Source of the DNA: Spongilla lacustris
Taxonomy: Eukaryota > Porifera > Demospongiae > Spongillida > Spongillidae
Reading direction: 5' to 3'
NCBI GenBank assembly: GCA_949361645.1
Contig: OX442417.1
Span: forward strand, 15,781,427-15,845,426
Length of the DNA: 64,000 bases
In this document: one piece after another, positions 1,121 to 62,632 of the stretch
Layout: each line of letters opens with the position of its first letter
Position numbering within the stretch: the first letter of the stretch is position 1
The notes under the pieces: model-generated
Seen by the model: only the letters and a program-made list of their open reading frames with translations
Databases searched by the model: none
What the model was told of the DNA's origin: nothing
Translations under genes and position numbers: made by a program

Positions 1121-3991
1121 TTACACCTGACATGACTTAAAATGGTAATCCAAACTCTTCTTGTACAGGTAAGATTTGGTACATCCACTGTTGCTACACC
1201 TCAACCTCTCTCCAGTATGCATCCTGCAATGGGCCTTCAATGCATGTGAGCTTGCAAATGACCTTTTACAGAAACATTTGAAAAATTTTTCTCCGGTATG
1301 AGTGAACATGTGTGTTTGCAGTTGTGACTTTTGTAAAAATCCCTTTCCACATTGTTCACACTCATGTGGCTTCTCTCCAGTATGAGTGAACATGTGTGAT
1401 CGTAGTTGTGACTCTTGTGAAAATGCCTTTCCACATTGTTCACACTGATGTGGCTTCTCTCCAGTATGAGTAAGCATGTGTGTTCGCAGATTTCCCCGTT
1501 GTGAAAATCCCTTTCCACATTGTTCACACTGATGTGGCTTCTCTCCAGTATGAGTGAGCATGTGTGTTCGCAGATTTGACTGCACTGAAAATCCCTTTCC
1601 ACATTGTTCACACTGATGTGGCTTATCTCCGGTATGCGTGAGCATGTATTTACTAGGAGTGGACATCTCTGAAGATGCCTTTCCACATGGTTGACACTGA
1701 TGTGACTTCTCTCCAGTATGAGTGAGCATGTGTGATCGTAGTTGTGACTTTTGTGAAAATGCCTTTCCACATTGTTCACAATGATGTGGCTTCTCTCCCG
1801 TATGAGTGAGCATGTGTGTTCGCAGATTTGACAGTTGTGAAAATCCCTTTCCACATTGTTCACAATGATGTGGCTTCTCTCCAGTATGAGTGAGCATGTG
1901 TTTTCTTAGAGTGGACATTTCTGAAAATCCCTTTCCACATTGTTCACACTCATGTGGCTTCTCTCCAGTATGAGTGAGCATGTGTGATCGTAGTTGTGAC
2001 TTTTGTGAAAATCCCTTTCCACATTGTTCACAATGATGTGGCTTCTCTCCAGTATGAGTAAGCATGTGTGTTCGCAGATTTCCACGTTGTGAAAATCCCT
2101 TTCCACATTGTTCACACTGATGTGGCTTCTCTCCAGTATGAGTGAGCATGTGTGTTCGCAGATTTGACTGCACTGAAAATCCCTTTCCACATTGTTCACA
2201 CTGATGTGGCTTATCTCCGGTATGCGTGAGCATGTGTTTACTAGGAGTGGACATCTCTGAAGATGCCTTTCCACATGGTTGACACTGATGTGACTTCTCT
2301 CCAGTATGAGTGAGCATGTGTGATCGTAGTTGTGACTTTTGTGAAAATGCCTTTCCACATTGTTCACAATGATGTGGCTTCTCTCCCGTATGAGTGAGCA
2401 TATGTGTTCGCAGATTTGACAGTTGTGAAAATGCCTTTCCACATTGTTCACAATGATGTGGCTTCTCTCCAGTGTGAGTGAGCATGTGTTTTCTTAGAGT
2501 AGACATTTCTGAAAATCCCTTTCCACATTGTTCACAATGATGTGGCTTCTCTCCAGTATGAGTGAGCATGTGTGATCGTAGTTGTGACTTTTGTGAAAAT
2601 CCCTTTCCACATTGTTCACAATGATGTGGCTTCTCTCCAGTATGAATTAGCATGTGTGTTCGCAGATTTGACAGTTGTGAAAATCCCTTTCCACATTGTT
2701 CACACTGATGTGGCTTCTCTCCAGTATGAGTGAGCATGTGTTGTCTTAGAGTGGACATTTCTGAAAATGCCTTTCCACATTGTCCACACTGATGTGGTTT
2801 CTCTCCAGTATGGGTGAGCATGTGTGATTGTAGATGTGACTCTTGTGAAAATGCCTTTCCACATTGTTCACACTGATGTGGCTTCTCTCCAGTATGAGTA
2901 AGCATGTGTGTTCGCAGATTTCCCCGTTGTGAAAATCCCTTTCCACATTGTTCACACTGATGTGGCTTCTCTCCAGTATGAGTGAGCATGTGTGTTCGCA
3001 GATTTGACAGGTGTGAAAATCCCTTACCACATTGTTCACACTCATGTGGCTTCTCTCCAGTATGAGTGAGCATGTGTGATCGTAGTTGTGACTCTTGTGA
3101 AAATCTCTTTCCACATTGTTCACACTGATGTGGCTTCTCTCCAGTATGAGTAAGCATGTGTGTTCGCAGATTTCCCCGTTGTGAAAATCCCTTTCCACAT
3201 TGTTCACACTGATGTGGCTTCTCTCCAGTATGAGTGAGCATGTGTGTTCGCAGATTTGACTGCACTGAAAATCCCTTTCCACATTGTTTACACTGATGTG
3301 GCTTATCTCCTGTATGCGTGAGCATGTGTTTACTAGGAGTGGACATCTCTGAAGATGCCTTTCCACATGGTTGACACTGATGTGACTTCTCTCCAGTATG
3401 AGTGAGCATGTGTGATCGTAGTTGTGACTTTTGTGAAAATGCCTTTCCACATTGTTCACAATGATGTGGCTTCTCTCCAGTATGAGTAAGCATGTGTGTT
3501 CGCAGATTTGACAGTTGTGAAAATCCCTTCCCACATTGTTCACACTCATGTGGCTTCTCTCCAGTATGAGTGAGCATGTGTTTTCTAAGAGTGGACTTTT
3601 CTGAAAATGCCTTTCGGCATTGTTCACACTGATGTGGCTTCTGTCCAGTATGAGTGAACATGTGTGTTTGCAGATTTCCCAGTTGTGAAAATGCCTTTCC
3701 ACATTGTTCACACTGATGTGGCTTCTCTCTAGTATGAGTAAGCATGTGTGTTCGCAGATTTCCACGTTGTGAAAATCCCTTTCCACATTGTTCACACTCA
3801 TGTGGCTTCTCTCCAGTATGAGTGAGCATGTGTGTTCGCAGATGTGACTGCACTGAAAATCCCTTTCCACATTGATCACACTGATGTGGCTTCTCTCTTG
3901 TATGAGTGAGTGTGTGTCTCTTCAGATCCAACTGTTGTGAAAATCCTATTCCACATTGTTTGCACTGATGTGTTCGTCTTCCTGATGCCAT
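1121..3991 (-). CDS. C2H2 zinc-finger protein, 34 zinc modules
   Basis: Intronless 956-residue ORF, probably a nuclear DNA-binding protein. After a 7-residue leader (MASGRRT) come 32 Kruppel-type fingers of exactly 28 residues with TGEKP linkers, then two conserved atypical modules. Finger 33 has C-x1-C-x12-H-x3-H spacing (KCFCKRSF) and finger 34 is C-x4-C-x12-H-x3-C. Fingers 8, 21 and 28 are degenerate: the core Phe is Ser and the helix Leu is Pro. Finger 28 also has Tyr for its first His. The start is chosen because MASGRR is shared by all four paralogs. The upstream CTGCAG|GTACAA could be a splice acceptor, so a 5' non-coding exon is possible. No KRAB, SCAN, BTB or other effector domain is visible. 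Target DNA is unknown. Confidence 0.93.
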   Translation of the reverse strand: MASGRRTHQCKQCGIGFSQQLDLKRHTLTHTREKPHQCDQCGKGFSVQSHLRTHMLTHTGEKPHECEQCGKGFSQRGNLRTHMLTHTREKPHQCEQCGKAFSQLGNLQTHMFTHTGQKPHQCEQCRKAFSEKSTLRKHMLTHTGEKPHECEQCGKGFSQLSNLRTHMLTHTGEKPHHCEQCGKAFSQKSQLRSHMLTHTGEKSHQCQPCGKASSEMSTPSKHMLTHTGDKPHQCKQCGKGFSVQSNLRTHMLTHTGEKPHQCEQCGKGFSQRGNLRTHMLTHTGEKPHQCEQCGKRFSQESQLRSHMLTHTGEKPHECEQCGKGFSHLSNLRTHMLTHTGEKPHQCEQCGKGFSQRGNLRTHMLTHTGEKPHQCEQCGKAFSQESHLQSHMLTHTGEKPHQCGQCGKAFSEMSTLRQHMLTHTGEKPHQCEQCGKGFSQLSNLRTHMLIHTGEKPHHCEQCGKGFSQKSQLRSHMLTHTGEKPHHCEQCGKGFSEMSTLRKHMLTHTGEKPHHCEQCGKAFSQLSNLRTHMLTHTGEKPHHCEQCGKAFSQKSQLRSHMLTHTGEKSHQCQPCGKASSEMSTPSKHMLTHTGDKPHQCEQCGKGFSVQSNLRTHMLTHTGEKPHQCEQCGKGFSQRGNLRTHMLTHTGEKPHHCEQCGKGFSQKSQLRSHMLTHTGEKPHECEQCGKGFSEMSTLRKHMLTHTGEKPHHCEQCGKGFSQLSNLRTHMLTHTGEKPHHCEQCGKAFSQKSQLRSHMLTHTGEKSHQCQPCGKASSEMSTPSKYMLTHTGDKPHQCEQCGKGFSVQSNLRTHMLTHTGEKPHQCEQCGKGFSQRGNLRTHMLTHTGEKPHQCEQCGKAFSQESQLRSHMFTHTGEKPHECEQCGKGFLQKSQLQTHMFTHTGEKFFKCFCKRSFASSHALKAHCRMHTGERLRCSNSGCTKSYLYKKSLDYHFKSCQV
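1451..2626 (-). repeat. Tandem 7-finger (588-bp) duplication inside the finger array
   Basis: Fingers 17-23 (2626-2039) and 24-30 (2038-1451) run in the same order by helix type: QKSQ, EMST, QLSN, QKSQ, EMSTPS, VQSN, QRGN. A 6-finger version of the block also occurs at fingers 5-10 (3634-3131). Even the degenerate PCGKASS finger is copied each time, so the copying is recent relative to that finger's decay. Confidence 0.9.
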
Positions 3992-4040
3992 TTGTACCTG
4001 CAGGCTGACAGAGACGTGGCACAGTACTATGCCAAGACAC

Positions 4041-4289
4041 CAGATGTGTACACATGCAGTGTGTTAGTGGTCCCTGCTCAGATGTGCACACATGCAGTCC
4101 CTGCTCAGATGTGTACACATGCAGTGTGTTAGTGGTCCCTGCTCAGATGTGTACACATGCAGTGTGTTAGTGGTCGCTGCTCAGATGTGTACACATGCAG
4201 TGTGTTAGTGGTCCCTGCTCAGATGTGTACACATACAGTGTGTTAGTGGTCCCTGCTCTGATGTGTACACATGCAGTGTGTTAGTGGTC
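4041..4289. repeat. 38-bp minisatellite upstream of zinc-finger gene 1
   Basis: About six and a half copies of a 38-bp unit containing CAGATGTGTACACATGCAG and GTGTTAGTGGTCC. It starts about 50 bp upstream of the start codon. The same unit lies at the same place upstream of the third zinc-finger gene (27277-27499) but is absent from gene 2. It is therefore part of the promoter or 5' region duplicated with the gene. Confidence 0.9.
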
Positions 4290-13577: not shown

Positions 13578-14684
13578 TTACATATGACAAGACTTAAGAT
13601 GGTAAACCAAACTCTTCTTGTATAGGTAAGATTTGGTACATCCACTGTTGCTGCACCTCAACCTCTCTCCAGTATGAGTCCTGCAGTGGGCCTTCAATGC
13701 ATCTGAGCTTTTAAATGATCTCTTACAGAAACATTTGTAAATCTTCTCTCCAGTATGAGTGAACATGTGTGTTCGCAGAATTGACTGATATGAAAATCCT
13801 TTTCCACATTGTTTACACTGATGGGGCTTCTCTCCCGTATGAGTGAGCATGTGTCTTTGCAGATTTGACAGTTGTGGAAATCCCTTTCCACATTGTTCAC
13901 ACAGATGTGGCTTCTCTCCAGTATGAGTGAGCATGTGTTTGGTAAGATTTGACTGTAGTGAAAATCCCTTTCCACATTGATCACACTGATGTGGCTTCTC
14001 TCCAGTATGAGTGAGCATGTGTGTTTGCAGAGATGACTGTTGTGAAAATCCCTTTCCACATTGTTCACACTGATGTGGCTTCTCTCCAGTATGAGTGAGC
14101 ATGTGTTTGGTAAGATTTGACTGTAGTGAAAATCCCTTTCCACATTGATCACACTGATGTGGCTTCTCTCCAGTATGAGTGAGCATGTGTGTTTGCAGAG
14201 ATGACTGTTGTGAAAATCCCTTTCCACATTGTTCACACTGATGTGGCTTCTCTCCAGTATGAGTGAGCATGTGTTTGGTAAGATTTGACTGTAGTGAAAA
14301 TCCCTTGCCACATTGATCACACTGATGTGGCTTCTCTCCAGTATGAGTGAGCATGTGTGTTTGCAGAGATGACTGTTGTGAAAATGCCTTTCCGCATTGT
14401 TGACACTGATGTGGCTTCTCTCCAGTATGAGTGAGCATGTGTATTTTCAGATGTGACTGTTGTGAAAATGCCTTTCCACATTCTTGACACTGATGAGGCT
14501 TCTCTCCCGTATGAGTGAACATGTGTGTTCGCAGAGTAGACTTTAGTGAAAATTCCTTTCCACATTGTTCACATTGATGTGGCTTCTCTCCAGTATGAGT
14601 GAGCATGTGTGTTCGCAGATGTGATGGTCGTGAAAATCCCTTTCCACATTGTTCACACTCATGTGGTCGTCTTCCTGAAGCCAT
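13578..14684 (-). CDS. C2H2 zinc-finger protein, 13 zinc modules
   Basis: Intronless paralog of the gene at 1121-3991, 368 residues from MASGRRP. It has eleven 28-residue fingers, then the same atypical tail pair (YKCFCKRSF and [11 protein letters not shown], ending CHM). Fingers 4-9 are three copies of a two-finger unit (helices QQSSLQT and LQSNLTK). A longer ORF could start at 14786. I prefer the inner ATG because the upstream GTACA-ATG is one base shorter than in the paralogs, so no reading frame is conserved there. Probably nuclear and DNA-binding; no effector domain. It lacks the 38-bp minisatellite upstream. Confidence 0.92.
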
Positions 14685-26058: not shown

Positions 26059-27249
26059 TTACACGTGGCATGATTTAAGATGGTAAACCAAACTCTTCTT
26101 ATACAGGTAAGATTTGGTACATCCACTGTTGCTACACCTCAACCTCTCACCACTATGCATCCTGCAGTGGGCCTTCAATGCATGTGAGCTTGTAAATGAT
26201 CTTTTACAGAAACATTTGTAAGTTTTCTTTCCAGTATGAGTGAGCATGTGTGTTCGCAGATTTGACTGCAGTGAAAATCCCTTCCCACATTGACCACAGC
26301 CATGTGGCTTCTCTCCAGTATGAGTGAGAATGTGTCTTTGCAGAGATGACTGTTGTGAAAATCCCTTTCCACATTGTCCACACTGATGTGGCTTCTCTCC
26401 AGTATGAGTGAGCATGTGTGATCGCAGATGTGACTGTTGTGAAAATCTCTTTCCACATTGATCACACTGATGTGGCTTCTCTCCAGAATGAGTGAGCATG
26501 TGTCTCCGCAGATTTAACTGCAGTCTAAATGCCTTTCCACATTGATCACACTGATGTGGCTTCTCTCCAGTATGAGTGAGCATGTGTGCTCGCAGATTTG
26601 ACTTTTGTGAAAATCCCTTTCCACATTGTTCACACTGATGTGGCTTCTCTCCAGTATGAGTGAGTATGTGTCTTCGTAGATATGACAGCAGTGAAAATCC
26701 CTTTCCACATAGTTCACACGCATGTGGCTTCTCTCCAGTATGAGTGAGCATGTGTGTTCGTAGATGCGACTGCAGTGAAAATCCCTTTCCACATTGTTCA
26801 CATGCATGTGGCTTCTCTCCAGTATGAGTGAGTATGTGTCTTTGTAGATATGACTGCAGTGAAAATCCCTTTCCACATAGTTCACACGCATGTGGCTTCT
26901 CTCCAGTATGAGTGAGCATGTGTGTTCGTAGATGCGACTGCAGTGAAAATCCCTTTCCACATTGATCACACTGATGTGGCTTCTCTCCAGTATGAGTGAG
27001 CATGTGTTTTCGCAGATTTCCCTGTTGTGAAAATCCCTTTCCACATTGTTCACACTGATGTGGCTTCTCTCCAGTATGAGTGAGCATGTGTGCTCGCAGA
27101 TGTGACTTTTGTGAAAATCCCTTTCCACATTGTTCACACTGATGTGGCTTCTCTCCAGTATGAATGAGTATGTGTCTCTTCAGATCCAACTGTTGTGAAA
27201 ATCCTTTTCCACATTGTTTACACTGATGTGTTCGTCTTCCTGATGCCAT
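26059..27249 (-). CDS. C2H2 zinc-finger protein, 14 zinc modules
   Basis: Intronless, 396 residues from MASGRRT. Twelve 28-residue fingers are followed by the family tail ([20 protein letters not shown]; end CHV). Finger 1 has the same recognition helix (QQLDLKR) as finger 1 of the gene at 1121-3991, marking these two as closest relatives. Both also share the 38-bp minisatellite upstream. Fingers 4-7 alternate LQSHLRT with LxSYLxR. An in-frame extension to 27327 runs into the minisatellite and is unlikely to be translated. Likely nuclear and DNA-binding; target unknown. Confidence 0.92.
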   Translation of the reverse strand: MASGRRTHQCKQCGKGFSQQLDLKRHILIHTGEKPHQCEQCGKGFSQKSHLRAHMLTHTGEKPHQCEQCGKGFSQQGNLRKHMLTHTGEKPHQCDQCGKGFSLQSHLRTHMLTHTGEKPHACELCGKGFSLQSYLQRHILTHTGEKPHACEQCGKGFSLQSHLRTHMLTHTGEKPHACELCGKGFSLLSYLRRHILTHTGEKPHQCEQCGKGFSQKSNLRAHMLTHTGEKPHQCDQCGKAFRLQLNLRRHMLTHSGEKPHQCDQCGKRFSQQSHLRSHMLTHTGEKPHQCGQCGKGFSQQSSLQRHILTHTGEKPHGCGQCGKGFSLQSNLRTHMLTHTGKKTYKCFCKRSFTSSHALKAHCRMHSGERLRCSNSGCTKSYLYKKSLVYHLKSCHV

Positions 27250-54247: not shown

Positions 54248-55310
54248 ATGGACGTCCTTGAGCTCAGCGTCCTCAGCGCCGCCAAGGCATCGGACTTCGA
54301 GATCTCCCACTCCGTAGGCATGGGGCGGAGCGGTCTCGTGGTGGCGGCCCGCTGCACGAGGCCTGGCCTCCCCAACCCCTCAAAGCTGTACGCCCTCAAG
54401 CTTCTCTTCAACTTCACGCACGAGTACACGTCGGTGATGCGCAACGCCTACGAGAACGAGTGGCTGGTCCTGTCTCGCGTGATGCCCCACCCGAGCGTGG
54501 TGAGGTTCTGGTCACAGTTCATCAGCGAGATACCCGACAGCCTCCTGCCACACCTCCCCGCCGAGATCAGGAAGGCGGTCGACCACAGCAGCAGGATGGG
54601 GAGGACTGTCCGCAGGAAGGGACAGTTCCTGGTGCTCGACTTCCACAAGCAGGACCTGCAGGCGTGGCTGAACGGGCAGCAGTGTCCGCTAGGGTTTGAG
54701 CAAACCCTGAGATTTACGGAGCAATTACTGGAAGCCACTCTGTACTTGGAGAACGCCTTGATAAGGCACCTCGACCTGAAGCCCGCGAACATTCTGGTGG
54801 CCGAAAGCGAACGTCTGGTGTTGTGCGACTTCGGGTGCGCCGTCCAGTTCTCCGACAGCTCTTTCGCCCTCAAGTACGTGAGGGGGTCGCTGCCTGGCGG
54901 GAACAGGGCTCACCTCGCGCCGGAAGTGGTGAACAAGCACCACCTGCTCCGGACGGACCCCTCCGGAGAAGGGACGATTAGCTACCTCAAGGAGACCTCC
55001 TTCGCTGTGGGCGTCCTCGTGCACGAGATAGCCACTAGCCAGCACCCGCTTCTGGACTATCCACTAGCCTACACAAGAAATGGCGTCGTGGAGTACTCTG
55101 TTGGTGATATTCAACCTCTCCCTGCCTTCTACCCAAACAGTTTCTGCTCCATAGTTACAGACCTCCTCCAACCGGACCCTGTTAAGCGGATAGCTCTTAC
55201 GGAGGCATTGCAGCAGCTGCGTCTGTGTTGCCTACGGAAACAGAGCTTTGTTGGGGTGGGCGGGATACAGGGGGAACTGGATAGGGTGAAGCAGGAGAGA
55301 GACCTTGCCA

Positions 55311-55374
<64 letters not shown>

Positions 55375-58300
55375 ATGTGTGTGTGAGCATGTGTGAGCAT
55401 GTGTGTGTGCATGTGTGTGTTTGTGGGTGTGTGTCTATGCCTGTGGGTTAATTGTGCATGTGTTCAAGAAGTTTTTAAAAAGCAATTTTGGTGAACATCA
55501 ACTGTGAGTGCAGTGCCATGGATGGGTGCCATGGATGGGTGCCATGGATGGGTGCCATGGATGGGTGCCATGGGAGCCATTGGGAGGGGGTGACACACAA
55601 GATGAGAACTGATATTCAATCTCTCCACGCATAATTAAGATACAACCAATCAGGGTCTTCCCTTGTCCACACCACACCTAGGCAAAGCTGAGTGTCATGG
55701 CTGCCGAGAGAGACTTTGCGATGGGTGAGGTGAAGCAGATGGTGGAGCAGTGCCAGAGCATCGCTGAGGAGTTTGAGACCATGTCGAGGCACACAGAGGC
55801 CCTCCAGCGGGAACTGAGAAAGGTACAGGTCTTGTTCGTGGTGCATGGTACCAGGTGGTGGAGATGGGCAGTACTTGTTGCCTATGCACTTATCAAAGGT
55901 CTCCTCCCCCCCCACCCAGCCTCGTTCCCACGCCCTATCTTTATATAGTAAAGTTAGCAAGGGGGAATATTGTATTTATTATTTTTTACCCACTAACTAA
56001 AAAAAAAAATAGGACCTGGGACCCCCCCACCCCCACCCCCCCTAGTGCAGGCACAGAAGGGACATTTGGGTTGGGATCGACTGGGATTTTAGCCCCAGGT
56101 AGGTGTGGGGATTAGCATATTATTCATGATGACGCAGGATATTTTATGCGGGCGTCTCTTCTGCTGCCCCACATAGTATGTAGGGGGGATTTGAATGGCT
56201 AGAATGCCCCAGGGGTGGGGGATTCGAAAACCGCAATCTTCAAATCGCCAACCTTCGCCCCATCTGTGAACACACCTGGGGGGAGTGGGGGAGACCATTG
56301 ATAGGTGCATTACTTGAGGTGTAAGACTTGTGTGTGTATATTAAACTGCTTAGCAAATGCGTCATATTCTACAATTGATTTTATATTTTCCGTGCCCATT
56401 TAATGCGATGCCAACATGATGTAGGCTTTGATTCCTGTTGAATACATGTAGTGCATTTACTGGTAAGTAGATATGTGATTAAAATGAAACACTTTAGTAG
56501 ATGAGAAGCCAAGAGACAAGATTACTTGATATTGGGGTATCTGGTATGTAAATGTTCACCAACTTATTCATAGAGAATGTTTTTTGTATTTACTTCTTAA
56601 CCCTCTGATCTTGTATGCAAATGTTTAACCCCTTAAAAACTGACCAGCACGTAAATACTCAACGCTAACCAGTATGTAGATGTTTAACCCTTTAATGCTG
56701 ACCAGTGTTTAAATGTTTAACCCTTTAGTATGTAAATGTTTAATCCTTTAACACTGACCAATGTTGTGTAAATGTTTAACTCTCTAACAACATACACTTG
56801 ACACTAAAATAATATATTGCAATGTGAAAGCAAATGTGGGTGTGGTTATCTTCCTTCACCATGTGTAGTAACTGTGGCTGTCATATTTACTCCATCATCT
56901 GCTGCGTCTTTACCACACTTAAAACAGCTGGTTAGGATGTGTAACCAACTTCCAGGTTTTGTGGGTTATTCAGTTATTCCCTATTACCTATTTGGTCAGG
57001 TACACATTTACTGGTAGTGGAATAGCAGGTTACCGATTTAAGGACTTCTTTATATGTGAAATCAGGGATTTACTGCCAATTTTGCAACAGGGGGTGGGTT
57101 TCGGAGTGTATGAAAATATAGGGGGTGGGTAAAAATAAAAGTCTTCCCTCAGTACCATTAAATGGTATGCCAGCCATGCAGTTTTATTACCAGGGGGGTG
57201 GGTTAGCCAAATTGGGGGCAAACCAGGGGGTGATTATGGGGTGGATAGGGGGGTGATTATGGGGTGGATAGGGGGTGGGAGCGGTAAATCCCTGGATATA
57301 CTCATTTGGCATGCCCTCCCAAGTTAATTATTTAATTTTGTCCCTAGGCTCAGGAGGAACGGAACCAGGCCATCCAGGTTAGTGAGGGGGCCTATGAGGT
57401 GAACAAGATGTTGCGGGAACAGCTGGCGCTGGTGTCTAGGGAGAGAGACCTGGCGAGGAAGCAGGTATGTGTGGGGGGGGGGGGGGGAGAGAGAGAGAGA
57501 GAGTAGTCTCGTCCCCAGACCCAATATATATAAGGCAGCAAGCGGGTAGATTATATCGCCGCTCTGCTGCATGTATTGGGTCTGGGGACGAGACTAGGAG
57601 GTGCAGAGGGATGGGGCACACTCTCGGCTCATCTCTGGTTCTAGGTGGATGAACTAAGGGAGATTGCATCAAAGAGCAGGATGGAAGACCGCATCGAGTA
57701 AGCCACACACCCCTGCATGAAGTCATGTACATAACCCCACCTAATGTTACTTTTGCTATGCCCACCCAATTGTTTGCGTACTGCCATTAATAATTGAGTG
57801 TGCATACTTTTCCATTCATACAGTCCACCTTGAAGGTTATGTAAATCCCCTTTGCTATTTTCGGGCGGGGGTGGGGGGGGAGGGGGTCACTCTTGTTGGC
57901 ATGCCTTCTAACTTCCTCTCTCCCAACAATAGTGAATGCAAACAATGCTTAACATTTTACATTGCGTCTGCTAACAACGAGAGTGCCTGTCTGTGGCACC
58001 CAGGGGTGAGTTAGGGCAGCTGCAAGGGCCTGTACGAGTTCACTTAAGTTTATCTCCTAACCTTTCTCTGCTTTGTTGCCCTGGCAGAAGGTAAGCCACT
58101 CCCCTTACTGGTACCCCCACCCTGTGCTAACCCTTTTCCTCCTTCCATATTTGTGGTGGGGGTGTGGCCTCTTTGATAGCATGTAAGTTAGGTGTTGGTG
58201 GGGATGAATCCTTATATAGTACTCTCTACCCCCCTTTAGGTGGTAAGTGGTATCATGTTCTCTAAGCCTTCTCCACCTTGTGTTTCCATGGCTCCTCCCC

Positions 58301-58502
58301 TTGTGTTTCCATGGCTCCTCCCCCTTGTATTTCCGTGGCTCCTCCCCCTTCTTTCCCAATGGTGGACAACTGTCACCTCTGCCATACAGCATGTGAGTGT
58401 GTTTTACTTAGCCGATATTAGAACTTACCACATTATCGCGCTGACATAATCATTAAGGTAGTTATAAAATTCCCTAACATAAATGTACATATACTTTGAA
58501 GC

Positions 58503-58555
<53 letters not shown>

Positions 58556-59188
58556 CACATTTATACTCATACCATAAAGCTTTGATTTCATTTGCTGTGT
58601 AGCAATGCGATTCCAAGTTTGGTGTCAACACTATTTACCAGCTATGAACAGGCAGGCCCAAAATATGCCGTAACCATGGCAGCAAGGCATCTGAATTCAA
58701 TGTATGCACAACATCTATGGTTAATATTTAGAATAATGCTAATTATGACACCTTGGAAGGCCGTGTTCAAACTAGGGGGAGTTAAATATTGACCTTATGA
58801 ATGTTTAATGGAACTTTCATACATACTGTTATGTTCTGTTCTCTCCTCTTCATCCCCCTCCCCACCCTACAGAATGTAAGTATTGGATGTGTGTGTGTCA
58901 ACATTTCTGATATTGACATACCTTGATGTTTCATTTGATGGAAATCTTTTAGAGGGTAAGAAAGCACACAAGTTTGTGTTCGGAGATCTTCACACCACAC
59001 CCATTTTCTCTCCCTCCTCCTCCACCACACCAACTCCCTCCTCCACCACACCCACTCCCTCCACCACACCCACTCCCTCCACCACGCCCACTCTCTCCCC
59101 TCCCCTCCTCCAGTGGAGCTGCTGCTACAAGCCTGAACTCAGCGCAGAAGGTTGCAAGACTTCCAAACATGTTCCAATTCAGTCTTGA
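54248..59188 (+). CDS. PINK1-like kinase with coiled coil and CHORD-like zinc module
   Basis: Reconstructed exons: 54248-55312, 55682-55822, 57348-57464, 57645-57697, 57933-58005, four 3-nt microexons (58088-58090, 58240-58242, 58390-58392, 58873-58875) and 59114-59188. Total 1,536 nt, 511 residues. The kinase domain (about 17-335) has a Gly loop GMGRSG (24-29), K51, Glu in ENE (69-71), HLD (174-176; Leu replaces Arg of HRD), N181, DFG (194-196) and GGN...APE (217-226). DFGC, GGN-before-APE and the YALKLLFNF strand point to the PINK1 branch. No mitochondrial presequence or membrane segment is seen. Exons 2-4 encode charged coiled coil. The C-terminus reads C-x2-C-x13-C-x2-HPG, then WSCC-x9-C-x4-H, resembling CHORD zinc modules. 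It converges with the DIX gene. Confidence 0.78.
55313..55373 (+). repeat. (GT)n microsatellite forming the intron-1 donor
   Basis: About 30 GT repeats begin exactly at the AAG|GT splice donor of kinase exon 1. Many registers could act as donors, and read-through would add a Val-Cys repeat ending at a stop near 55396. Confidence 0.85.
55823..57347 (+). other. Kinase intron 2
   Basis: 1.5-kb intron, GTACAG donor and TCCCTAG acceptor. It contains an A-run and C-runs at 55999-56040. At 56620-56790, repeated ATGTTTAACCCTTTAA-type units are interspersed with TGACCAGTxxGTAAATG. 57190-57270 repeats GGGGTGATTATGGGGTGGATA. No internal exon was found. Confidence 0.65.
57504..57596. mobile_element. TAG...CTA hairpin MITE in kinase intron 3
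   Basis: TAGTCTCGTCCCCAGACCC mirrors GGGTCTGGGGACGAGACTA, and an inner ATATCGCCGC-type segment resembles that of 9629-9727. It follows a (GA)n run, so the left flank cannot be compared reliably; no target duplication is visible. Confidence 0.7.
58088..58090 (+). other. Candidate 3-nt microexon 1 (AAG, Lys)
   Basis: CTAAC branch-like motif, pyrimidine tract and TGGCAG acceptor stand immediately before AAG, followed by GTAAGC. Phase 0 on both sides. Intron before it: 58006-58087. Confidence 0.5.
58240..58242 (+). other. Candidate 3-nt microexon 2 (GTG, Val)
   Basis: CTACCCCCCTTTAG acceptor, then GTG, then GTAAGT. Phase 0. Introns of 149 and 147 bp flank it. Confidence 0.5.
58390..58392 (+). 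other. Candidate 3-nt microexon 3 (CAT, His)
   Basis: CCTCTGCCATACAG acceptor, then CAT, then GTGAGT. Phase 0. The codon could add a further metal ligand in the HPG-WSCC loop. Confidence 0.5.
58504..58552. repeat. (CA)n microsatellite
   Basis: About 24 CA units inside the intron between candidate microexons 3 and 4. Confidence 0.9.
58873..58875 (+). other. Candidate 3-nt microexon 4 (AAT, Asn)
   Basis: CCCCTCCCCACCCTACAG acceptor, then AAT, then GTAAGT. Phase 0. The next acceptor, CCTCCTCCAG, starts the final WSCC exon at 59114. Confidence 0.5.
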
Positions 59189-59400: not shown

Positions 59401-61299
59401 CTATCTGTGGTGGGCTACCTCCCTCACATAGATCAGGACCTTTCCATTCCAGCTGGGCAAGACGTATTCGTCATCTGTGATCTGAAGGGTACATGTTGTT
59501 AGAGCAAGTATGAGGTATGGGAATGGGGCCACATGAGGTACAGGAACGGGACCACATGAGGTAAGGGAATGGGCTAGGCCACGTGAGGTACAGGAATGGG
59601 ACCACATGAGGTAAGGGAATGGGCTAGGCCACGTGAGGTACGGGAATGTGGCCACATAAGTACAGGAATGGAACACTACATGCGCACAGTCATGAGCTTT
59701 TATCATAAGCAATCATCCATTGGACTTCATGACGTCACAACAATGATGGATATGGCATCAAAGGAATATTAATCTTCTAAAAGCTTTGGTATGTAAACAT
59801 CATACCATGTTATGTACACCCACAGCTTTCACAAACACTTAAATGGCCAAACCTCTGGATGACCGCACCCACATATTACCCCTGATGACACACCCACCTA
59901 TTACCCCTGATGACACACCCACCTATTACCCCTGATGACACACCCACCTATTACCCCTGATGACACACCCACCTATTACCCCTGATGACACACCCACCTA
60001 TTACCCCTGATGACACACCCACCTATTACCCCTGATGACACACCCACCTATTACCCCTGATGACACACCCACCTATTACCCCTGATGACACACACCCTAT
60101 TACCCATGGAGACACACCTACCTCTTCCTTTACAACTCCACAGTCTGGGTCTTCAGTTTTGATATAAAAGCGATAGTTGCTATGACGATCAAGTGTGGCT
60201 TTGAAGTCCTTTAGCCGTATTGCATCAATCCTGTGAAGAGAGACCACATGTGAGGGCCTATGAGGGTATGTGAGGGCCTATGAGGGTATGTGAGGACCTG
60301 TGAGGGTATGTGAGGACCTATGAGGGTACGTGAGGACCTGTGAGGGTATGTGAGGACCTATGAGGACCTGTGAGGGTATGTGAGGACCTGTGAGGGTATG
60401 TGAGGACCTATGAGGACCTGTGAGGGTACATTGAGGGTCTGTGAGGACCTGTGAGGGTATGTGAGGACCTGTGAGGGTATGTGAGGACCTGTGAGGGTAT
60501 GTGAGGACCTATGAGGACCTGTGAGGGTACATGTGAGGGTCTGTGAGGACCTATGGGCCTCACATCCACACCACACATGCAATACCTCCTTCATAACCTA
60601 ACCTCCTTAACACACACCACTCTCCTCCATACATCATCATTACCTCTTCGGCACGCTGGTGACATAAGGTGTTTCTGTCTTGTCATTCAGCAAGTAGTAC
60701 ACCACCTTAGTGCTATCAGAGAGTGGGGCAGAACCTGGGGGGGAGTGTAGGGGTAAAGGGGGGTGTATTGTAGTGCAGTGCAGTGTAGGGGGTGGGGTAG
60801 TGTGGAGTGTGGGTGTGATTAACAAGATGCCACCCTTTAAATATATCTCTGCCATGCCCACATTTACATGTGGGGATAAAAGAATACACACATGGTGTGT
60901 GGTGTTGGGAACACAACAGAACATACCCTAAAACACATGTGGCTACACAAACCACACACATAAACAAGAGTAGACATTTACAGATCTAAGCCTAACCATT
61001 GAAGTGTGCACACAATGTAGTCCATTAAGATATACACCCACATGCACACATAAGTATGCACATACATACATACACCCACATGCACACACATACACATATA
61101 CCCATCCACACTTTCTTGCGTACAAATATACTATAATACATACACACGCAATCATAGATAAAAATCACACACACACATCACAATGTGTGCAGTATCACAC
61201 ACATACCTTCTCTCACGTCTGAATAGTGTCTCTCTCTCTCCCTCTCCTTATCCTTCTCCCTCTCCTTATCCTTCTCCCTCTCCTTATCCTTCTCCCTCT
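59401..61299 (-). CDS. DIX-domain protein, C-terminal exons (DIXDC1/Axin type)
   Basis: Four exons on the minus strand: 61299 (gap edge) to 61207, 60734-60644, 60230-60122 and 59481-59401. Junction phases fit (G|GT, AG|G, then phase 0) and all introns are GT-AG. The first readable exon is a basic/acidic REKDKE repeat running into the gap, then HYSDVREG. The DIX domain follows: STKVVYYLLNDKTETPYV, then RLKDFKATLDRHSNYRFY, DCGVVKEE and DDEYVLPSWNGKVLIY, ending VREVAHHR. DIX domains polymerise head to tail in Wnt signalling scaffolds in the cytoplasm. C-terminal position excludes Dishevelled; PKR, LKDFK and W-x-GK look most like DIXDC1. The 5' part is lost in the gap. Confidence 0.85.
59515..59660. 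repeat. Intronic tandem repeat, about 50-bp unit
   Basis: Repeats of GGAATGGGACCACATGAGGTA and GGGCTAGGCCACGTGAGGTA inside the last DIX-gene intron. Confidence 0.75.
59873..60108. repeat. 25-bp minisatellite in last DIX intron
   Basis: About nine nearly identical copies of TATTACCCCTGATGACACAC plus CCACC. They sit 14 bp from the donor of the preceding exon, within the 638-bp intron 59482-60121. Confidence 0.9.
60244..60555. repeat. 20-bp minisatellite in DIX intron
   Basis: About fifteen copies of a TGAGGGTATGTGAGGACCTG-type unit. The array fills most of the intron 60231-60643. Each minus-strand unit contains a CCTCACATAC-like tract. Confidence 0.88.
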
Positions 61300-61499: not shown

Positions 61500-61777
61500 A
61501 AACCGGTACGGTAGACCCCCGATATGCAATGTAGCATAATTGCTATAGCACTAGTAATTTATTAAATACTTTACTGGGATGGCCTAATACTATCTTCATG
61601 CTCCAAGATGGATGCTTCTTTGAAACCAGCCCTCACTGTTTCCTGTGTATTATGATTTGCAGGTTTATATTAATGTGTAGCACCAACACCAACCCCATCC
61701 TACCCCCCCTTCCTCTTCTGGTATTAGTTTAAATTTCATCAGATTTGGCTCTGTATTACATTCTAGTACTGGTACAA
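61500..61777. other. Upstream region of zinc-finger gene 4
   Basis: Without the minisatellite of genes 1 and 3. GTACAAATGGC at the start codon is conserved with them. A TTCTAG acceptor-like site lies 12 bases upstream, consistent with a 5' non-coding exon. Confidence 0.4.
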
Positions 61778-62632
61778 ATGGCTTCAGGAAGGAGACCACA
61801 TCAGTGTGAACAATGTGGGAAGGGATTTTCACAACAGTCAAATCTGCGAACACACATGCTCACTCATACTGGAGAGAAGCCACATGGCTGTGGGCAATGT
61901 GGAAAGGCATTTTCACATAAGTCAAGTTTGCAAGGACACATGTTCACTCATACTGGAGAGAAGCCATATCAGTGTGAACAATGTGGAAAGGGATTTTCAC
62001 ATAAGTCAAGTCTGCAAACACACATGCTTACTCATACTGGAGAGAAGCCACATGGCTGTGGGCAATGTGGAAAGGCATTTTCACATAAGTCAAGTTTGCA
62101 AGGACACATGTTCACTCATACTGGAGAGAAGCCATATCAGTGTGAACAATGTGGAAAGGGATTTTCACATAAGTCAAATCTTACGAAACACATGCTTACT
62201 CATACTGGAGAGAAGCCACATGGCTGTGGGCAATGTGGAAAGGCATTTTCACATAAGTCAAGTTTGCAAGGACACATGTTCACTCATACTGGAGAGAAGC
62301 CATATCAGTGTGAACAATGTGGAAAGGGATTTTCACATAAGTCAAATCTTACGAAACACATGCTTACTCATACTGGAGAGAAGCCACATCAGTGTGAACA
62401 ATGTGGAAAGGGATTTTCACAACAGTCATCACTGAAAAAACACATGCTCACTCATACTGGAGAGAAGATTTACAAATGTTTCTGTAAGAGATCATTTGCA
62501 AGCTCAAATACATTTAAGGCCCACTGTAGGATTCATACTGGTGAGAGGTTGAGGTGCAGCAATAGTGGATGTACCAAATCTTACCTGCACAAGACTAGTT
62601 TGGATTACCATCTTAAGTCATGTCACGTGTAA
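61778..62632 (+). CDS. C2H2 zinc-finger protein, 10 zinc modules
   Basis: Intronless, 284 residues from MASGRRP; an in-frame ATG at 61745 would add 11 residues. Eight 28-residue fingers and the family tail ([20 protein letters not shown]; end CHV). Fingers 2-7 are three copies of a two-finger unit, HGCGQC (helix HKSSLQG) and YQCEQC (helix HKSSLQT or HKSNLTK), so the unit is 168 bp. It is the only family member here on the plus strand and sits about 34 kb from the others. Probably nuclear and DNA-binding. Confidence 0.92.
   Translation: MASGRRPHQCEQCGKGFSQQSNLRTHMLTHTGEKPHGCGQCGKAFSHKSSLQGHMFTHTGEKPYQCEQCGKGFSHKSSLQTHMLTHTGEKPHGCGQCGKAFSHKSSLQGHMFTHTGEKPYQCEQCGKGFSHKSNLTKHMLTHTGEKPHGCGQCGKAFSHKSSLQGHMFTHTGEKPYQCEQCGKGFSHKSNLTKHMLTHTGEKPHQCEQCGKGFSQQSSLKKHMLTHTGEKIYKCFCKRSFASSNTFKAHCRIHTGERLRCSNSGCTKSYLHKTSLDYHLKSCHV

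Follow-up and report, generated by a model that had tools for sequence, protein, structure and literature searches.

Within a 64,000-nucleotide stretch of the sponge Spongilla lacustris (contig OX442417.1, positions 15,781,427 to 15,845,426, forward strand; here called the window), there is a gene on the + strand whose best reading is as a PINK1-related kinase/coiled-coil/zinc gene. Near its 3' end, six constitutive exons of one codon each, encoding K, H, V, H, N and R, would be spliced in stepwise to make up the loop of a predicted zinc module. We put the probability of this at about 0.88. The arrangement in the DNA is real, goes beyond what was first noted, and is an extreme form of known microexons.

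Six one-codon exon candidates

The interval 58006–59113 separates the exon ending in HPG from the exon beginning with WSCC, and the two join in phase 0. A first-pass annotation of this DNA described a run of four 3-nt microexons here. All four triplets are present as described (AAG 58088–58090, GTG 58240–58242, CAT 58390–58392 and AAT 58873–58875, each after AG and before GTAAGC, GTAAGT, GTGAGT and GTAAGT respectively), and they do belong to a consecutive run in the zinc module, but the count is six: CAT at 58180 and AGG at 58953 had been overlooked. The six candidates are as follows.

58088–58090, + strand: one-codon exon 1, AAG (K), cag/AAG/gtaagc; acceptor 5.5, donor 3.8.
58180–58182, + strand: one-codon exon 2, CAT (H), gatag/CAT/gtaagt; acceptor −0.2, donor 5.0; the homologue P0052 has H there.
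58240–58242, + strand: one-codon exon 3, GTG (V), tag/GTG/gtaagt; acceptor 4.8, donor 5.0; P0052 has I.
58390–58392, + strand: one-codon exon 4, CAT (H), cag/CAT/gtgagt; acceptor 3.8, donor 4.7; P0052 has F.
58873–58875, + strand: one-codon exon 5, AAT (N), cag/AAT/gtaagt; acceptor 7.3, donor 5.0; P0052 has N.
58953–58955, + strand: one-codon exon 6, AGG (R), tttag/AGG/gtaaga; acceptor −3.5, donor 3.5; P0052 has R.

There are ten AG-NNN-GT strings in the interval, and six of them have a donor score of at least 3.5. In all six of these, three coding bases stand in frame between a canonical AG acceptor and a canonical GT donor. Read in order, AAG-CAT-GTG-CAT-AAT-AGG is in phase 0 throughout and gives HPG-KHVHNR-WSCC; the full six-codon set would yield HPGKHVHNRWSCC. 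The interval holds seven donors scoring at least 3.5, these being the donor of the HPG exon and the six microexon donors. The resulting seven introns are 82, 89, 57, 147, 480, 77 and 158 nt long, and lengths of 57–480 nt are credible.

Homologues of the loop

Among the 80 homologues found, the WxCC half of the module is present in one, P0052, which shares 43% identity with the query over 99% of the latter's length. It reads HPG-RHIFNR-WSCC, which aligns without gaps with HPG-KHVHNR-WSCC. The two loops have three identities, the remaining pairs being K/R, V/I and one H/F. Only 2 of the 360 ways of ordering the six residues match RHIFNR at least as well, as do 17 of 1,000,000 random sextets. When six of the ten mechanical sites are picked in order, in all 210 ways, KHVHNR comes joint first with KHVVNR, a tie that depends on a site with a weak donor, GTA/gttata. 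The four-codon loop KVHN fits RHIFNR with gaps exactly where the triplets at 58180 and 58953 fall.

A second homologue, P0003 (55% identical), ends with HKG-R-V-S-S-C-A-stop. Because V-S is the reading of an unspliced phase-0 donor GTNAGY, there is probably a donor after the first loop residue in P0003 too, and its end possibly represents a retained second intron. No homologue turned up when the four-codon module was used as the query, and a search with an alignment of the C-terminal pieces returned eight proteins, all of them short coiled-coil pieces and none with the WSCC half. The 53-residue module was also searched against the genome (248.6 Mb, 51 contigs), giving two matches, both at this locus.

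The zinc module

The zinc motif of BTK and ITK has the spacing H-x10-CC-x9-C, which can also be read from the ITK alignment. The predicted ligands of the sponge module have this same spacing in the six-codon form and in P0052, whereas the four-codon form has H-x8-CC. The six-residue module aligns ungapped to ITK (2e6i). In Tec kinases the BTK motif is preceded by a PH domain; here, unlike in Tec, it comes after a kinase domain and a coiled coil, and no PH domain is found among the Pfam matches of the full-length model. The sponge module also has an extra upstream CxxC...C, which is CHORD-like and unlike the BTK/ITK motif. The module is a putative zinc binder.

The Pfam BTK model (PF00779, curated cut-off 24 bits) gives the cut-out module 27.0 bits with all six codons, and the module of P0052 26.4. 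The score falls to 17.8 with no loop, 18.6 with four codons, 18.3–21.7 for the six single skips, 19.5 with the loop order reversed, and 14.4–23.0 for nine random six-residue loops. All 18 altered loops thus score 14.4–23.0, under the cut-off, and because of this drop it appears that the length and the identity of the six residues both matter. Membership of CHORD (PF04968, cut-off 24.6 bits) was considered and rejected: the score is 16.2, and the real loop has no advantage under this model, 6 of 10 control loops matching or beating it. In a PDB search, the module of P0052 matched CHORDC1, RAR1 and ITK at E-values of 0.084–0.18.

Expected frequency by chance

As background for site counts we used 526,892 other strand-bases, comprising the rest of the window and 20 segments of 10 kb from the same contig, on both strands. 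With donors of at least 3.5 and acceptors of at least −3.5, there are 6 sites in the interval and 15 in the background, corresponding to 0.032 expected per 1108 nt. With acceptors of at least 3 the counts are 4 and 3. In the background, no more than two 3-nt candidates cluster together. The Poisson values, which are indicative only, range from 1e-12 to 7e-11; the chance figures are to be read as orders of magnitude, because the matrices are generic and the sites were already known when the loose thresholds were set. A further comparison concerns strong donors: an AG lies exactly 3 nt upstream in 84 of 783 outside the interval, compared with all six internal donors within it.

Weighing the explanations

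A number of observations weigh against a loop made of six one-codon exons. Its inclusion in mRNA is predicted from DNA, with the P0052 loop as indirect support, and P0052 is the one homologue that covers the full loop. Two of the six microexons have weak acceptors, −0.2 (58180) and −3.5 (58953), and all splice-site scores come from generic animal frequency matrices. The support from protein families is weaker for the whole protein than for the excised module: BTK scores 22.0, below the cut-off (14.6 if the loop is removed, and with four codons it is not listed at E-values up to 1), and whole P0052 scores 21.8. The PDB sequence matches of the module are weak, with E-values of 0.02 for ITK and 0.019 for CHORDC1. 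AlphaFold2, run on P0052 with 28 of the 80 homologues aligned, gave a predicted local distance difference test (pLDDT) score below 50 over most of residues 466–521, making the model of the module unusable. Finally, when exon lengths of 1–15 nt are allowed (acceptor at least 0, donor at least 3.5), the densest cluster on the + strand of the window is not this interval, with 4, but 2053–3481, with 5. That cluster sits in a zinc-finger tandem array, and since the array holds a denser cluster than the interval, repeats can mimic microexon runs. The introns between the microexons, and those on either side of them, do not repeat one another.

The most serious competitor accepts all six exons and makes them regulated, combinatorial skipping giving up to 64 variants of the zinc loop that would differ in metal or partner binding. 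Each of them is a symmetrical exon (3 nt, phase 0), so that skipping causes no frame shift, two acceptors are weak, and many known 3-nt exons are alternative, for example in RPS24 (PMC11162997) and hth (PMC7392893). Set against this, the BTK score drops with every one of the six single skips and in the four-codon form, and the sole homologue with a full loop keeps its length of six; we consider regulated skipping unlikely. The same observations bear on the first-pass annotation, which had the product as HPG-KVHN-WSCC, with optional skipping of only the four strong microexons allowing up to 16 isoforms that tune the loop. The best acceptors are indeed in those four (3.8 to 7.3), and each skip would keep the frame. 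However, the loop of P0052, the homologue whose module is complete, is six residues long and has H and R just where the weaker triplets fall; the BTK score is 18.6 for four codons as against 27.0 for six; and the donors of the two added sites score 5.0 and 3.5. The four-codon product is therefore probably not the right one, its 16 isoforms are unsupported, in that every shortened loop scores lower and P0052 retains the full length, and as a whole the four-exon version is very unlikely.

It was also stated originally that the interval contains no longer exon candidate. This is correct in that none encodes a peptide resembling RHIFNR, but a few weak longer candidates exist, and one could suppose that one or two of them encode the loop, with the 3-nt patterns being coincidental or recursive splice points. 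Three in-frame open stretches of 6–150 nt with selected donors are listed, of 126 nt, 18 nt (AGPKYA) and 15 nt (ASEFN), the latter two having weak donors. The 126-nt frame (58267–58392) ends at a good donor, that of microexon 4, but its acceptor is poor and its use would add 42 residues to the protein. AGPKYA, which has no in-frame rival of 18 nt, scores −12 against RHIFNR. Two other lengths up to 60 nt pass the loose threshold, 42 nt at 58049 and 55 nt at 58188, but both end at microexon donors. A recursive ratchet point, being a zero-nucleotide AG/GT, was rejected because at each of the six sites AG and GT are separated by three bases. Longer exons are thus a highly improbable source of the loop. 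It is harder still to believe that the 3' end is decayed or mis-assembled, with the true last exon elsewhere and WSCC a remnant. The model P0004 of Geodia barretti, which stops before the module, could be taken in its favour, but the last exon here is open, keeps the phase and agrees with P0052 across WSCCYK...GC...H...P, and no acceptor of the interval scores higher than its own (9.8). The module missing from the Geodia model would be explained in another way, because gene finders commonly miss such exons (PMC8831610).

Two more clusters of three candidates (lengths 1–15 nt) were seen in the window and its background, one with mixed lengths on the + strand of L019 and the other in another zinc-finger array, on the − strand of the window. 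The former, at 3014–4106, spans 1.1 kb, and its three candidates resemble microexons of 15, 12 and 8 nt. The window contains 84-nt tandem repeats at 1290–3972, 13743–14666, 26225–27230 and 61796–62467. The + strand copy (61733–62632) codes for a C2H2 zinc-finger array, and the unit at the other loci resembles its reverse complement. Candidates with 5 nt between AG and GT recur in the 1290–3972 repeat and are a source of false microexon runs.

Proposed splicing mechanism

The two splice sites of a single 3-nt exon would be too close together for a U1 and a U2-type complex to bind at the same time. The Insplico paper (PMC10250204) makes the same inference of non-simultaneous occupancy for short microexons. 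If sites 3 nt apart are not jointly occupied, it follows that the seven introns would have to be taken out singly, by intron definition. Each removal would add 3 nt to a neighbouring exon and leave the next donor or acceptor complete, so that the process would run like a zipper. The same paper reports that SRRM4-dependent microexons whose downstream intron is removed first have weaker acceptors. Microexons 2 and 6 have weak acceptors, which suggests that each of them may be joined to its downstream neighbour before its upstream one. Constitutive inclusion of all six is likely, since the ligand spacing would be lost in a shorter loop. We infer the presence of the six codons in the mRNA, the order of splicing and the constitutive use from sequence.

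An introner-like origin of the introns was considered and rejected: between 57465 and 59113, the nine introns have nothing in common but short simple-sequence matches of 11–16 nt.

Relation to known systems

Schistosome micro-exon genes encode secreted proteins and contain many small symmetrical exons of 6–36 nt. The sponge gene shares the many small symmetrical exons, but its microexons are smaller, at 3 nt.

Single 3-nt microexons occur in troponin T and homothorax of Drosophila and in NCAM of mouse and rat (PMC8042270, PMC7392893). These likewise place one in-frame codon between canonical sites; the passages on them describe a single such exon per gene, and here six in succession would make up one loop. 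In human RPS24, which codes for a ribosomal protein, microexons of 3, 18 and 22 bp follow one another at the 3' end (PMC11162997), but these three are of unequal length, with only one of 3 nt, and are alternatively spliced. In plants, 1-nt exons are found in APC11 and VPS55, and in rice a 5-nt and a 12-nt microexon lie side by side; exons of 1–3 nt are spliced in plants and missed by annotation, and the passages on them name no more than two in succession, compared with six here (PMC8831610). The ratchet points of Drosophila are juxtaposed zero-nt AG/GT sites in long introns, with no coding payload (PMC8605326). Recursive splicing of this kind removes an intron stepwise using a donor at the joined acceptor, as is proposed here, except that in the sponge one codon would be left behind at each step and the introns are 57–480 nt. 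Non-canonical splicing is the subject of a 2026 review (PMC13149111).

No run of 3-nt exons was found in the literature searched, which most subscription papers lay outside, and within it the term consecutive microexons was met for RPS24 only. Among known runs of one-codon exons, the predicted one of six is likely the longest. Should it be borne out in mRNA, the gene would be a natural test case for intron definition and for the order of splicing where exons reach their lower size limit. Six one-codon exons, each too short for its splice sites to be recognised jointly, would have to be placed in order with none lost. There would also be an evolutionary puzzle, namely that a loop of apparently constrained length depends on the kind of exon that is skipped most readily. 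Annotation loses protein ends of this kind, an example being the Geodia barretti model that halts before the module.

Gene model and neighbouring features

The gene was modelled with 12 exons over 54248–59188 (+ strand): a kinase exon, three coiled-coil exons, the CLWHPG exon, the six 3-nt exons listed above, and the last exon.

54248–55312, + strand: exon 1, PINK1-related protein kinase domain, beginning MDVLEL; Pfam Pkinase 76.7 bits; the start matches the homologues P0001 and P0002 (88–90% identical).
55682–55822, + strand: exon 2, coiled coil; phase 0; collinear with P0003, P0004 and P0052, and ungapped at the next junction.
57348–57464, + strand: exon 3, coiled coil; close to the homologous exon P0081 (83% identical).
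57645–57697, + strand: exon 4, end of the coiled coil; ends in phase 2.
57933–58005, + strand: exon 5, first half of the zinc module, ECKQC...CLWHPG; donor gtgagt.
59114–59188, + strand: last exon, WSCCYKPELSAEGCKTSKHVPIQS followed by a stop; phase 0; acceptor 9.8.

PINK1 itself has a mitochondrial targeting sequence and a C-terminal extension. The first 12 of the best 60 of 598 PDB matches to the kinase domain are PINK1 chains (best E-value 4.4e-17), and a relative from the demosponge Geodia barretti, annotated as PINK1, is 53% identical over 90% of the query. The model begins right before the kinase domain and ends in a coiled coil and a zinc module, so that it may or may not be a PINK1 orthologue.

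The donor of exon 1 is GTGTGT, at the beginning of a (GT)n tract. This tract, of about 120 nt (55313–55434), opens the intron after the kinase exon, and the exact position of the donor can therefore not be placed. The splice sites of exon 2 are low-scoring (acceptor −0.7, donor −2.4). A perfect 23-nt inverted repeat (57504–57526 with 57574–57596) lies inside the intron 57465–57644, before exon 4.

Downstream, on the minus strand, joining three exon-like pieces (59401–60746) produces a sequence with a DIX domain (Pfam PF00778, 91.4 bits). This gene, of the Dishevelled/Axin type, lies tail-to-tail with the kinase gene.

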